Of a stretch of DNA of 64,000 nt, positions 36,062-42,624 are shown piece by piece. The position numbers and the translations under genes were made by a program. The stretch covers positions 1 to 64,000 of IMG/VR virus record IMGVR_UViG_3300025121_000282; one strand, written 5' to 3'. The notes beneath the pieces were generated by a model. The model did no database searches and was not told the origin of the DNA. It saw nothing but the letters and a program-made list of their open reading frames with translations. Each line of letters starts with the position of its first letter. Position 1 is the first letter of the stretch. The stretch is from a virus.

Positions 36062-36937
36062 ATGTCAGTAAGTAACGCAGTGAAGCAGCAGAAGATTGCT
36101 GAACTCATTGGATCTCAGGGCGGCCGTGACATTATCGCCCGTTCAATGATTCAGCCCCTTCGGTCCCGTCGTGACTATTTCGCTGTAGGGCGTAAGTCAC
36201 TCCACGTCGAGCAGCTTCCCGATGGTGCGCTCCCGATTTATGACAAGGATGTGGACGTCGTCGCCTACATCGTGTCGGAAGAGGGTGATAACATCGTTGC
36301 TGTGCAGAAGCCTCGCCGGGTTCATTTCCCGACCTTCGAGATTGCTGCCAACCCTGAGATTCCCCTGTCTCAGATCCGCCAGCGCCGGTTCGACGTGATC
36401 GACCGGTCGCAGGACGCGGCCAGAAGCCAGATTCAGGCTGCTGAAGACCAGCGGTACTTTGCTACCCTGGATTCGGTTGCTGTTGACGGCTACGACAATG
36501 TGTCGGGCTCGGCTGCACGTGACGTTCAGGTCATTGCTCCCATCTCCCCCAGCGTTCTTGCTGAGGCCTTCTCGGAGATTGAGCAGAACGACCTCCAGGT
36601 CAGCCGGATGTTCTTCAATGCGAAGGACTACAGCGACGTCCGCAAGTTCGGCAGAGACATCCTGGACATCGAGTCCCAGGCCGTCCTGCTGAAGACCGGT
36701 CTGATGGCGCAGCTTTGGGGCGCGCAGATCATGATCAGCCGACTGGTCCCCCAGGGCTTCGTTTATATCGTCTGCGAGCCGCTGTACTTGGGGAGAATGC
36801 CAGTACGCACAGAACTCACCGTAATATCCGCTGATGACCCTAGACGCCGTATGATAGGCTTCTCGGTCTTCGAAGAGATTGGCATTGGCGTGTATAACCC
36901 CGCTGGCGTCACCCGTCTCGTGGTACAGCGCGGTTAA
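36062..36937 (+). CDS. Major capsid protein, HK97-like
   Basis: The 291-residue protein has the layout of an HK97-fold capsid subunit: a helical N-terminal arm (about 1-30), an E-loop-like strand region (PDGALPIYDKDVDVVAYIV), a spine helix (SQIQAAEDQRYFATLDSV), a P-domain and A-domain region with FFNAKDYSDVRKFGRDILD, and a C-terminal strand ending GVYNPAGVTRLVVQRG. The position after terminase, portal and scaffold-like genes fits. The gene is GC-rich and has the ribosome site AGAGGTAA 8-12 bases before the ATG. No sequence search could be run. Confidence 0.78.
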   Translation: MSVSNAVKQQKIAELIGSQGGRDIIARSMIQPLRSRRDYFAVGRKSLHVEQLPDGALPIYDKDVDVVAYIVSEEGDNIVAVQKPRRVHFPTFEIAANPEIPLSQIRQRRFDVIDRSQDAARSQIQAAEDQRYFATLDSVAVDGYDNVSGSAARDVQVIAPISPSVLAEAFSEIEQNDLQVSRMFFNAKDYSDVRKFGRDILDIESQAVLLKTGLMAQLWGAQIMISRLVPQGFVYIVCEPLYLGRMPVRTELTVISADDPRRRMIGFSVFEEIGIGVYNPAGVTRLVVQRG

Positions 36938-36943
36938 TCTCAG

Positions 36944-36963
36944 CGGTCTTCCAGACCGTTTTT
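36944..36963 (+). terminator. Intrinsic terminator after the capsid gene
   Basis: CGGTCT-TCC-AGACCG followed by TTTTT (36959-36963) is a classic short hairpin plus U-run. It begins six bases after the capsid stop. Confidence 0.8.
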
Positions 36964-36971
36964 CGTTCATA

Positions 36972-37019
36972 ATCAACCCGAGGAGCCCGTTAAAGTTCCT
37001 CGGGTTGATGTGTATTTGG
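36972..37019 (+). terminator. Second hairpin with GTATTTGG tail after the capsid gene
   Basis: A perfect 13-base stem (36972-36984 with 36997-37009) with a 12-base loop is followed by GTATTTGG at 37012-37019. It lies immediately behind the intrinsic terminator, making a double stop before the next transcription unit. Its loop length and tail motif match the hairpin at 34478. Confidence 0.7.
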
Positions 37020-37255
37020 GATTCTTGTTAGTACTTTATACCAATCTTGGCTATATGTCTATTATGTTGTTTAAAGACACTTTCTTGTTACTAGGTTATA
37101 TGTCCCCAACTCGGTGTTAGTTCTTTGTTATTGTTCTGAGTGTTACTAGGCCGTATGCCTATTTAAACTTAGTACAAATTATTTTATCTCTCCAAAGACA
37201 ACAAGACCAATAATTATTTTGTGGGTACTGTCTGTACTATTGTTTATTTTTTATA
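37020..37255. other. Non-coding stretch with degenerate repeats
   Basis: I see no gene here. The AT-rich stretch contains a repeated block: TGTTACTAGG at 37086-37095 and again at 37141-37150, each followed by a TATG(T/C)C sequence. TTCTTGTTA occurs at 37022 and 37083. It could be an RNA processing region, a protein-binding array or debris from insertion of the downstream endonuclease gene. Confidence 0.5.
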
Positions 37256-37285
37256 TTGCGCTGAGCAGCCCCGATCTTGTATAAT
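37256..37285 (+). promoter_or_regulatory. Candidate sigma70-type promoter for the methyltransferase fusion gene
   Basis: TTGCGC at 37256-37261 is followed after 18 bases by TATAAT at 37280-37285, which is about 30 bases before the ATG. The preceding double terminator would isolate the gene, so its own promoter makes sense. No direct evidence of use. Confidence 0.5.
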
Positions 37286-37315
37286 GTTGTAACACAGCAT
37301 AGGAAATAAACAAAA

Positions 37316-40189
37316 ATGACTGATTACCAACAATTGTTAATTGCTGCAGGCATTACTCCGGGTACTATCCATGAACTGTACCTAAAGCACACAGATGTGG
37401 AATTGGCAGCCCAGGCTTCTGTGTTTGACCAGATAGTCCCGGAACATGTGGTGGCTTATTGGCGTAAAAAATGGGGCGTGAAGACTCTAACCTTTCGTCA
37501 GCGTAGAGACCTGGGCAAAGGTATACCAGACATTTCTGGACTCACTAAAGAGAAGTTTCTGGAGTTACATACCAATTTTGGAGACACTCAAATTGCCAAA
37601 ATTTATAACATCAGTAAACAGGGTATAGCCAAGCTTAGACAGCGATATGGCATTGCAGCCGTCAGTTATGAGAAGAGAATTAACCCAACAGACGAACTTA
37701 CTGATTTTCAGAAAGCCGTAATTATTGGAACATCTTTGGGAGATGGCCACATTACTGCGTCAGGATGTTTAAAGTTAGATCACTCTGCGGCTCAAATGAA
37801 TTACATCAAATTCAAACACGGTGTAGTTGCAAATATTTCTAAACGATTGCAATACTTTGAAGGAGATAGATTTAGAGAATACTTGACTTATGGGTTCACT
37901 TTCGTGACCTCTCCACACTCATGGGTAAAGGAGCTTCGTTCTATTTTGTACCCAGATGGAATCAAAGTTTTTCCATTGGATGTAATTGCTAGTTTGAAGC
38001 CTGTCTCTTTAGCTATGTGGTATTTTGACGATGGTCACTATGAAGACTATCCTAGTATTGCGATGGGACTGGCTACTTTGACTGATGTAGACAACGCTAT
38101 TGTTGGATTAGACACAGCCTTTGGTCTTAAAACGTATCTTTCTCCACGATCTTTACCCAATTGCCATGTTCTTCAGTTCAGAGCAGAGTCTAGTGATAGA
38201 CTATTTGAGTTAGTAGCTGAGTTTGCTACTCCAGATGTTGCCCACAAGATCCCTAAAAAATTTTGGCCTATTAAAATCGACTTACCTAAATACAAGGTTA
38301 CCAGAGAGGAGCTTCAGGTATCTAATGACCTGCAGAAGAAGTCTAAGTCTTGGCTCACAATGACTGAGGCAGAACAAGCAGAGCACACAAATAACGTTTT
38401 TCTTGGGTGGAGAGAAGTTGGTTTTCCTTTTCAGACTCCTAAATCAGAAGAGCTTCAAACCATCGTTGGTTTAGAAGACTATCAGATTTTAGACGAAGAT
38501 ACGATCAAAGCTTGCCAAGTTGGGCAAAGTATATGTCAAGCTTTCATGCCCCACATTTGGGGTCAAAAACCCATTGATTCTACTTACTCTATTAAAGAGA
38601 TTTTTGATGATGATCACATGTTTAAAACCGTTATTGTCAAATCTTTAAATGAAAAGAAGTCTGTTACAGCTGGTGCAATTAGAAGTTCTTTGCGTTCATA
38701 TCGCCGTTCAGGCTTATACAATTTTCGCCCAGCAGCTGCCCGTGTGTTGGTAGATAAGTATTGCGTTTCTGGCGGTACTGTATTTGACCCCTGTGCAGGG
38801 TGGGGTGGCAGACTTTTAGGTGTATTGCTATCTGAACAGAGGGTCAATTATGTGGCCTGTGAGCCTAGCTCTGCTACTTTTAATGGTTTAAATGAACTGA
38901 CCAATTGGTTGCAAGAGCACGGGGTAAATGCCAACAATCGCGTTCATTTGCACAACACCCCAATAGAGGACTTCATAGTTCCGGATGGCATAGACCTTAT
39001 TCTGACCTCCCCTCCATACTGGAAAAAAGAAATTTATTCAGACGAACCAACCCAATCTAGTATTAGGTATACTACTTATTCTGACTGGTTGGATCGATTT
39101 TTGAAACCGTTGATTGAGAATTCTTGGAAGAAACTCAATGCTGGTGGCCACATGATTTTGAATGTAGACGATTTTAATTTAAATAAGGAAACTTACAACT
39201 TAGTAGAGGATACTCAACGAATTGCGACTCAAGTTGGGTGCGGCTCTCCAATATCAATTTTTAAATATGACATGGCTTCTTATGGTGTAGAAAATTTTGA
39301 GTCGGTTTTAATATGGCAGAAAGAATCTGGGGTTGTACTTCCATTCCATACTAGACCTAAAGTCAAGTGTCAGCACTGTGGTGGTGATTTTGAAGCTAGA
39401 GCCGGCAAACAATTTTGCTCTACTTTGTGTCGAGTAAAAGGACATCGTCATAATTCTAAATTGCAATCTGACACAGCCAAATTTTGGGCATTGGACGAGT
39501 ATACCCGTTCTATTACAGATAAGTGTAGGTCTTGTGGATTTTATAAACTAAAATCTAATCTTTTGGGTCATGTATGTTCTGACTGTTCTGTTTTACCTCA
39601 TAACCCCAAGAAAATTTGCAAATTTTGTTCAAACCCGTTTCAAGCCGAAAATCTTACTCATCAATACTGTACTGAAGCCTGTTATAAAAAATACCGCAGA
39701 CGTGAATATCGAAAAACAGTTCCTGCTAAAACAACTCGCACAGCCAAATGTCAAATTTGTGAGAACGAATGGGAAGTCCCAGCAACAGGTGGGTGGCCTA
39801 CTAAATGTGATCAGTGTAAGAATCAATCTGATTTAGACGATCGGAAACGAGTTTGTCAGTATAGACATTGCAACACTGAATTTGTAGACACCTCTAAGTT
39901 TCAGGGTATGCATTTTTGTTCACCTGAACATCGAGGTGCCGAAAAACGCATACGTTCAGGTGCAACTGCTGATGTGCCCCCTAAGGATCTCGTTATTGGT
40001 CGTCAACGCAGTAAATGTATGCTGTGTAAACAGCCATTTCTGCTTAATGGAACTAAAAATACTCGTTGTGATGATTGTAAGGTAAAGACCAGAACTAAAC
40101 AGTGTTTGCGGTGTAGCAATCCTTTTATTGATGACAGTGCAAATAACACGTGCAAATTTTGTATTGTTTGCACTAAAATTTCACGTTAA
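37316..40189 (+). CDS. Fusion: HTH, LAGLIDADG endonuclease, DNA methyltransferase, zinc-finger array
   Basis: This 957-residue protein combines three functional parts. Residues 1-125 are helical with an HTH-like SKQGIAKLRQRYG. Residues 130-320 hold a LAGLIDADG endonuclease (IIGTSLGDG, 136-144; MWYFDDG, 234-240), both catalytic Asp present. Residues 460-670 are an amino-methyltransferase of the TSPPYW type: SAM motif VFDPCAGWGGRL (489-500) and TSPPYW (564-569). Residues 685-952 contain seven cysteine modules, mostly CxxC pairs about 20 apart. No intein splice signals are present. The gene is flanked by a double terminator and its own promoter, so it may be a self-contained inserted unit. Target and effect are unknown. 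Confidence 0.85.
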   Translation: MTDYQQLLIAAGITPGTIHELYLKHTDVELAAQASVFDQIVPEHVVAYWRKKWGVKTLTFRQRRDLGKGIPDISGLTKEKFLELHTNFGDTQIAKIYNISKQGIAKLRQRYGIAAVSYEKRINPTDELTDFQKAVIIGTSLGDGHITASGCLKLDHSAAQMNYIKFKHGVVANISKRLQYFEGDRFREYLTYGFTFVTSPHSWVKELRSILYPDGIKVFPLDVIASLKPVSLAMWYFDDGHYEDYPSIAMGLATLTDVDNAIVGLDTAFGLKTYLSPRSLPNCHVLQFRAESSDRLFELVAEFATPDVAHKIPKKFWPIKIDLPKYKVTREELQVSNDLQKKSKSWLTMTEAEQAEHTNNVFLGWREVGFPFQTPKSEELQTIVGLEDYQILDEDTIKACQVGQSICQAFMPHIWGQKPIDSTYSIKEIFDDDHMFKTVIVKSLNEKKSVTAGAIRSSLRSYRRSGLYNFRPAAARVLVDKYCVSGGTVFDPCAGWGGRLLGVLLSEQRVNYVACEPSSATFNGLNELTNWLQEHGVNANNRVHLHNTPIEDFIVPDGIDLILTSPPYWKKEIYSDEPTQSSIRYTTYSDWLDRFLKPLIENSWKKLNAGGHMILNVDDFNLNKETYNLVEDTQRIATQVGCGSPISIFKYDMASYGVENFESVLIWQKESGVVLPFHTRPKVKCQHCGGDFEARAGKQFCSTLCRVKGHRHNSKLQSDTAKFWALDEYTRSITDKCRSCGFYKLKSNLLGHVCSDCSVLPHNPKKICKFCSNPFQAENLTHQYCTEACYKKYRRREYRKTVPAKTTRTAKCQICENEWEVPATGGWPTKCDQCKNQSDLDDRKRVCQYRHCNTEFVDTSKFQGMHFCSPEHRGAEKRIRSGATADVPPKDLVIGRQRSKCMLCKQPFLLNGTKNTRCDDCKVKTRTKQCLRCSNPFIDDSANNTCKFCIVCTKISR

Positions 40190-41742: not shown

Positions 41743-42624
41743 ATGTCAGAGATTGAATACGAACGCGGCGTGTTTTTTACTTATGTGGTGCGCAGTGTGT
41801 TTACTGATGGCCAACAGGACATGCGGTTCAGTGTAGGTGACGAATTCGAGTACGACGGGACAATACTTCGTATTGGTAATGAAGAGACTACGTCACAAAG
41901 AATTAGAGGCGCCATCAAACACGGGTGGGCCACCAGACTGGGAAGCCCTAAGGTTGCGTTACAAGCACCCAGGGCCAACATAAAGATCTCTGCTGCACTT
42001 CCTGAAAACCGGGCTAAAGGTATGATGGAAATGACTGTGGAGAGATTTGAAGACGAGCGGGTGGTGGGTACTGTTGATGGCATCCGCGCTGCCGCTAAAA
42101 ACCCGAGTGGTAACATAGGGAAAGACCGTCAGCCCGCTCCTGCAGTTCGTACGGCATCAGAACTCAACTTTGTTGGTGATTCGGTGAGTGCTCCTGTCTC
42201 TCGTGGGGACAGAGTTGTAGCTACAATAAGCACCCCTCTTAAGACCTCATTTAACACAGAAACTGGTAAGACTGTGGACTTGAATACCGGCAAGCCCATT
42301 TTATCTGTGGATGAGGGTAAAAGAATAAATAGTGGCTACAGCGAAGCAGAAATTGCTAACATAAACAGAGACACTGCTCCTTCTCGGGTGGTTGAGCGTG
42401 CATCTAGACCCTCTGTTGCCCGTCCAACAGTTAAGGCACCAGTCCAGGCCGCTCCTACAGAATTGGAGTGGGACCTTAGTGCCAATCCTATGAAGAGAAT
42501 TGGAGACATGAGAAAGCAGTTTGCTGACCGTCCCGATGTTCTTTTACAGCTTTACAGCATAGAAACGCCTAAAATTAAGGCCATGATGGTGGAAAGATTT
42601 CCAGGGGTGTCATTTCCTAAGTGA
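41743..42624 (+). CDS. Hypothetical protein, 293 aa (possible virion protein)
   Basis: Unknown. The first 60 residues look like a small folded domain, followed by a polar basic linker with AVRTASELN, a Ser/Thr/Pro-rich middle and a helical C terminus (about 240-293). GG-rich ACAGGAAAACC precedes the ATG. The next gene starts at GTG 42621, overlapping its stop. It has the basic-T-A-S motif seen in several putative virion proteins. Confidence 0.6.
   Translation: MSEIEYERGVFFTYVVRSVFTDGQQDMRFSVGDEFEYDGTILRIGNEETTSQRIRGAIKHGWATRLGSPKVALQAPRANIKISAALPENRAKGMMEMTVERFEDERVVGTVDGIRAAAKNPSGNIGKDRQPAPAVRTASELNFVGDSVSAPVSRGDRVVATISTPLKTSFNTETGKTVDLNTGKPILSVDEGKRINSGYSEAEIANINRDTAPSRVVERASRPSVARPTVKAPVQAAPTELEWDLSANPMKRIGDMRKQFADRPDVLLQLYSIETPKIKAMMVERFPGVSFPK

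Follow-up and report, generated by a model that had tools for sequence, protein, structure and literature searches.

A predicted LAGLIDADG nuclease fused to an amino-methyltransferase and a zinc array beside a phage capsid gene: a candidate homing element that may protect its own target

Homing elements normally gain immunity by disrupting or altering their target. Free-standing phage nucleases that lie beside essential genes, capsid genes included, are well known (PMC2988022, PMC10448857). The seg and mob genes of T4 (such as segD, between genes 23 and 24) are nuclease ORFs next to an essential gene, with no intron or intein, and display presence/absence polymorphism and flanking conversion (PMC2988022, PMC10448857). 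The gene described here is like them in these respects, but the T4 genes encode GIY-YIG or HNH nucleases without a methyltransferase (MTase), whereas this gene joins a predicted LAGLIDADG nuclease to an MTase and a zinc array. A long review of Type II enzymes (PMC4081073) makes no mention of LAGLIDADG, and according to a 2023 paper no enzyme of the LAGLIDADG type has been described as part of restriction-modification (RM) systems (PMC9957025). For that reason its authors, having raised an RM reading of the LAGLIDADG inserted in actinophage methylases, dismissed it (PMC9957025). A preliminary description of our locus, made from the sequence alone, knew of no described example with this order of parts. 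That much stands for the open-access literature, where we found no published LAGLIDADG-MTase element of the present kind; the gene is not singular, however, but one of a family at an apparent capsid-side hotspot.

The window analysed is a stretch of 64,000 nucleotides that opens a virus record of 314,886 bases (IMGVR_UViG_3300025121_000282). The fusion gene lies at 37316-40189 on the + strand, like all window features given below, and encodes 957 aa from an ATG in one uninterrupted frame, in the order HTH-HTH-LAGLIDADG_2-MTase-Zn array. The two HTH-like repeats (about aa 10-120; 37343-37675) are helical in the AlphaFold model (mean pLDDT 79.8), and homologues have HTH_23 matches. The LAGLIDADG_2 endonuclease domain (37715-38203) was matched by Pfam at aa 134-296 with E 2e-19, above the cut-off. 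Next comes an N4C/N6A-type amino-MTase with an N-terminal extension (about aa 346-668; 38351-39319), matched by N6_N4_Mtase at aa 559-672 with E 8e-6 and 26.5 bits, just below the 26.7 cut-off of Pfam. The array (aa 685-953; 39368-40174) was placed by its Cys positions and a weak Pfam match to zf-CGNR. PHROGs matches of the protein were to LAGLIDADG homing endonuclease and to several DNA MTase families. When the model was compared by Foldseek, the nuclease part matched I-SceI in the PDB (E 9e-9), while the MTase part matched viral site-specific DNA MTases, BFVD proteins annotated as N4-cytosine DNA MTases. The window genome has a single LAGLIDADG_2 domain and a single MTase of the fusion's family, both within this gene.

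The signature residues agree with the preliminary description. The nuclease has the LAGLIDADG fold with two motifs, ..LGD143G and WYFDD239G, and both catalytic Asp, D143 and D239, are kept. The MTase has a complete SAM motif I, FDPCAGWGGRL from aa 490, and a complete motif IV of the amino-MTase (N4C/N6A) form (S/N/D)PP(Y/F), TSPPYW at aa 564-569. The proposed seven zinc modules were located, each with four ligands, all Cys except one His: C685/688/701/705, 737/740/754/757, 768/771/785/789 and 812/815/831/834 for modules 1-4, and 847/852/868/H872, 901/904/918/921 and 930/933/949/952 for modules 5-7. The earlier view that no intein is involved also held; an intein reading was rejected, as LAGLIDADG is N-terminal to an uninterrupted MTase that is contiguous with standalone MTases, and no splicing blocks surround the nuclease.

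Upstream lies the gene for the major capsid protein (MCP; 36062-36937; phrog_2522 major head protein, E 4e-51), whose 3′ end is the putative homing address. Two terminator-like hairpins, 36942-36960 and 36972-37009, fill 36942-37009 (folding z-score −6.6), and an untranslated, AT-rich leader of 306 nt (37010-37315) leads up to the ATG, with degenerate direct repeats of 12-19 nt (TTACTAGG..TATATG(T)CC) and a TATAAT box at 37281-37286 as a putative promoter. The preliminary description had the gene isolated by a double terminator and its own promoter. The double terminator is borne out by the two hairpins, but the promoter is weak, since the −35 paired with the TATAAT box agrees at only 3 of 6 positions and the promoter pattern TTGTATAATG is no more frequent within the window than expected by chance. 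A shared promoter motif for the fusion gene was dropped because of this chance-level occurrence. On the right, the conserved gene D4 (41743-42624), with homologues 3′ of MCP at 59 loci, served as the landmark for occupied versus empty sites.

A survey of phage genomes for the same fusion, as the preliminary description had suggested, found it to recur. With all searches combined, the LAGLIDADG-MTase-zinc fusion (LAG-MT-Zn) turned up in no fewer than 14 separate phage lineages, each time directly downstream of MCP. The uncultured phage LR745208.1 (485 kb) encodes a full-length homologue, with 37% identity over 98%, directly behind an MCP gene whose product is 65% identical to the window MCP. 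An alignment-based scan, with a two-sequence alignment as query, gave 20 IMG/VR loci; an initial scan of viruses in which the window protein was the sole query found nothing, and a DNA megablast against phages gave no match. Gene pairs in which nuclease and MTase are unfused do exist (loci L031, L125 and L186), which would fit a frameshift or assembly error that joined separate genes here. This artefact was nevertheless rejected, its probability being negligible given intact fusions in so many lineages from separate assemblies, and the fusion can be taken as one real polypeptide, as first proposed. The zinc array is optional in the family: module number differs between relatives, clade II has no array, and module 1 of the window protein, which falls in a low-confidence stretch of the model, is missing in relatives. 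Some relatives depart from the common plan in other ways. In a 1229-aa version of the fusion, an extra N-terminal LAGLIDADG copy (L001:5140-6000, also L010 and L011) has both catalytic Asp changed, to N and R, and L008 has an extra copy with the catalytic Asp kept. At L007:3567-5510 (LR756508.1, a 484-kb phage), zinc fingers and a Vsr-like nuclease are fused to a distant MTase of the same family, with motif IV altered to TSIPY.

We collected 80 MCP loci and mapped everything between MCP and D4. The occupants included LAG-MT-Zn, LAGLIDADG-MTase (LAG-MT), LAGLIDADG alone, LAGLIDADG-zinc, and zinc modules with two PD-(D/E)XK-like domains, some of them joined to an MTase and others not. The MTase is fused to Zn-PD-(D/E)XK in L085, L086 and L155, the PD-(D/E)XK assignment being supported by Foldseek matches of the L086 nuclease to NhoI, Eco15I and I-Ssp6803I. 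As separate genes at the MCP site, an HNH/EDxHD-type nuclease is followed by an MTase in L031, a NUMOD3-PD-(D/E)XK gene overlaps an MTase gene in L125, and a distant LAGLIDADG gene is followed by an MTase gene in L186. Elsewhere the MCP-D4 gap is merely about 160-250 bp (L048, L090, L103). In 33 IMG/VR records of the phage group, 5.86 Mb in total, the MCP site accounted for every full-length MTase (13 of 13) and every LAGLIDADG_2 domain (21 of 21). The site directly 3′ of MCP is very probably a homing hotspot in a large phage group. In Bacillus phage G, gp28 (NC_023719.1; L219:5961-6893) directly follows MCP and by sequence reading consists of NUMOD3 and a PD-(D/E)XK-like domain. It resembles a homing nuclease, and the hotspot may therefore extend to cultured phages; the cultured relative Tunturi_5 has no nuclease after MCP. 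Other genes also occur in the MCP-D4 interval. A TnpB/Cas12f-like gene sits beside a LAGLIDADG-only element at L105:12856-14196, and a gene that by eye resembles uracil-DNA glycosylase (cluster c2, e.g. L085:13281-13943) recurs there, sometimes in the place where relatives have a LAGLIDADG element (L091 versus L096).

Close relatives differ in whether the site is occupied. Identical MCP proteins were found with unlike occupancy in L030 (LAG-MT) versus L032 (no element) and in L091/L100 versus L096, and near-clean insertions were seen in L039/L042 (976 bp versus 13 bp) and L027/L090 (1772 bp versus 111 bp). A pairwise comparison showed that in L067 the MCP tail and terminator occur again behind the nuclease gene, and that this repeated stretch corresponds to the MCP end itself in element-free L072; a search for MCP-tail duplicates behind other elements gave no clear case. 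When occupants differed, divergence of the MCP gene was confined to its last ~150 nt. The L030/L032 pair had 0 nt changes over about 720 nt and then 20 in the final 145, and L104/L021 were 99-100% identical over 1.8 kb and then 73%. In both pairs the tail changes were synonymous, with no amino-acid difference. The same-occupant control pair L091/L100 had no such dip, although controls of this kind are scarce, with 3-4 pairs at a 5′ identity ≥0.90. The trend persisted in lower identity bands (P 0.003-0.04), where pairs are not independent. An abrupt change of this kind is the trace that would be expected of homing with co-conversion, or of synonymous target escape.

The gene is therefore of the homing type that the preliminary description proposed: it has a fixed site beside MCP and is present or absent at that site among close relatives, it lies between genes, outside any intron or intein and with MCP and the downstream genes intact, and it is flanked by altered tracts, for which same-occupant controls are few. 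On this pattern it is very probably a free-standing homing element immediately 3′ of MCP. The same features bear on a different role, in which the protein acts as a phage-phage weapon of the single-chain RM type (like Type IIG), destroying the DNA of co-infecting rivals and marking self, with homing secondary or absent. The two predicted activities do sit on one chain, and homing nucleases of jumbo phages can serve interference (PMC11620839), but homing is what strict residence at a single site, near-clean occupied/empty pairs and flanking conversion tracts point to, and LAGLIDADG enzymes recognise rare long sites, which makes a weapon of this sort improbable.

The nuclease tree divides mainly into LAG-MT-Zn (with the window), LAG-MT and LAGLIDADG alone. 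The catalytic Asp are kept in 54 of 57 LAGLIDADG domains, and the three exceptions represent a single degraded extra copy whose protein also has an intact main copy. MTase motif positions are mostly conserved in 35-36 of 36 sequences, with DPC-G-GGR and TSPPYW near-invariant. The active sites of both parts have thus been retained across a family that is about 60% diverged. Distances between LAGLIDADG domains agree with those between MTases (Mantel 0.85 overall; 0.72 and 0.79 within clades), and this agreement exceeds that of either part with MCP. By these distances, nuclease and MTase have been inherited together. It might be argued that the MTase is only a module for DNA recognition or regulation (e.g. 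dosage control or autorepression), its catalysis irrelevant to protection, since HTH and zinc modules are swapped among partners and domain shuffling is hence common; near-invariant SAM-binding and catalytic motifs across ~60% divergence make this quite improbable.

The MTase has also changed partners. In the MTase tree, the PD-(D/E)XK-MTase of L086 is nested within the LAG-MT clade and L031 joins L076, which points to an exchange of partners. The MTase has been paired repeatedly with unrelated predicted nucleases at the MCP site. This bears on the reverse history, in which a LAGLIDADG element invaded a methylase gene as a parasite, the MTase being the victim. Lone LAGLIDADG insertions within phage methylases have been published, as in actinophages (PMC9957025, PMC11855218). 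Here LAGLIDADG is N-terminal to an MTase that runs on uninterrupted, the address is MCP, that address is shared by LAGLIDADG genes lacking an MTase and by MTases paired with other nucleases, and no LAGLIDADG was detected with the 75 standalone MTases among the best 80 IMG/VR matches; this reading was rejected as very improbable.

Standalone MTases of the same family, in genes of ~330-390 aa, are found in Vibrio, Bacteroides and staphylococcal phages, including Vibrio phage 2.058, Bacteroides DAC phages and Twortvirinae, and 75 of the 80 best IMG/VR matches to the MTase are single genes of ~350 aa. Such abundance fits an MTase carried as anti-restriction cargo, which would modify many short genome sites against host restriction enzymes, unrelated to the nuclease target, and so pay for the stay of the homing element. 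Orphan phage MTases are usually so interpreted (PMC9957025). General anti-restriction MTases would be expected elsewhere in the genomes too, yet in this phage group the MTase is confined to the MCP site, where it accompanies a nuclease (13 of 13), and its partners there include several unrelated nucleases. We regard cargo of this kind as unlikely, while giving it real weight. Protection of the element's own target by the MTase is preferred because it best explains a site-restricted, repeated pairing with unrelated nucleases at an essential coding sequence.

Not every nuclease at the site has an MTase. An IS605-type TnpB gene splits the LAG-MT-Zn fusion at L022:6692-8551, L024 and L025 (and L023, L026); apart from the insertion, these contigs match L018 at 100% identity as far as the insertion point, and LAGLIDADG is left without MTase. 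At L027:7929-9566 the MTase core has been lost in frame, giving a LAGLIDADG-zinc protein. All of these keep a predicted nuclease domain without the MTase, and protection by methylation is therefore not strictly obligatory; likewise, the LAGLIDADG-only clade III thrives at the MCP site, and an MTase is therefore not required by every such nuclease.

The proposed cut-and-protect model is as follows. In a co-infected cell, the LAGLIDADG nuclease would be guided by its HTH repeats and zinc modules to an element-free relative, where its target would be a conserved sequence in or just past the MCP 3′ end. The nuclease would cut, and repair from the element-bearing genome would copy the element together with about 150 nt of flanking MCP. 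The fused MTase would methylate the site of the element itself, or copies that had just been converted, and a single gene would thereby carry both cutting and protection. MTase protection is proposed because a target in capsid coding sequence cannot simply be destroyed by insertion, although altered MCP tails alone could shield occupied genomes from cutting. LAGLIDADG enzymes recognise long sites of about 20 bp, while MTases of the N4C/N6A class usually recognise 4-8 bp. With this mismatch, nuclease and MTase could share a specificity only through shared HTH and zinc modules, a putative role for both. Cleavage, the exact target, methylation and the blocking of cleavage by methylation are steps that we infer, and the model as a whole, homing plus a fused MTase protecting its own target, has in our judgement an even chance of being right. 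More tentatively, at slightly short of even odds, we suggest a self-contained ‘homing restriction-modification’ class, in which a meganuclease against an essential coding sequence that it is unable to disrupt is made self-tolerant by a fused or adjacent MTase. The proposed class would combine the MTase with LAGLIDADG, PD-(D/E)XK and other nucleases at the capsid-side hotspot.

If true, an MTase of its own would be a different solution to self-targeting, and the element would bridge homing endonucleases and RM systems, families regarded as separate. One capsid-side hotspot with many natural occupant types, and with cultured relatives in Tunturi_5 and phage G, offers a testable system. In having nuclease and amino-MTase on one polypeptide, the fusion is like Type IIG/IIC enzymes (RM.BpuSI, TstI), whose nucleases are PD-(D/E)XK, HNH or GIY-YIG rather than LAGLIDADG. 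Because LAGLIDADG is not a known restriction endonuclease fold, the fusion is not filed as an RM enzyme, and it may work like one. The closest solved folds of its nuclease part are the single-chain meganucleases I-SceI and I-WcaI, which are without MTase or zinc parts, I-SceI being intron-encoded according to its PDB names. The homing endonuclease I-Ssp6803I, of the PD-(D/E)XK type, and NhoI and Eco15I are fold matches of the alternative L086 nuclease at the same site, which differs from them in having two nuclease copies, zinc modules and an MTase; the window protein contains no such fold. Like the present candidate, gp210 of PhiPA3 is a homing nuclease of a jumbo phage, usable for interference competition (PMC11620839), but it is an intron-encoded HNH enzyme without MTase. 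In actinophages, too, LAGLIDADG can share an ORF with a phage methylase, through LAGLIDADG, intein and ShiLan insertions into DNA methylases (PMC9957025, PMC11855218); there the methylase is the invaded gene, whereas the present element has the capsid gene as its address and an MTase that reappears beside unrelated nucleases.
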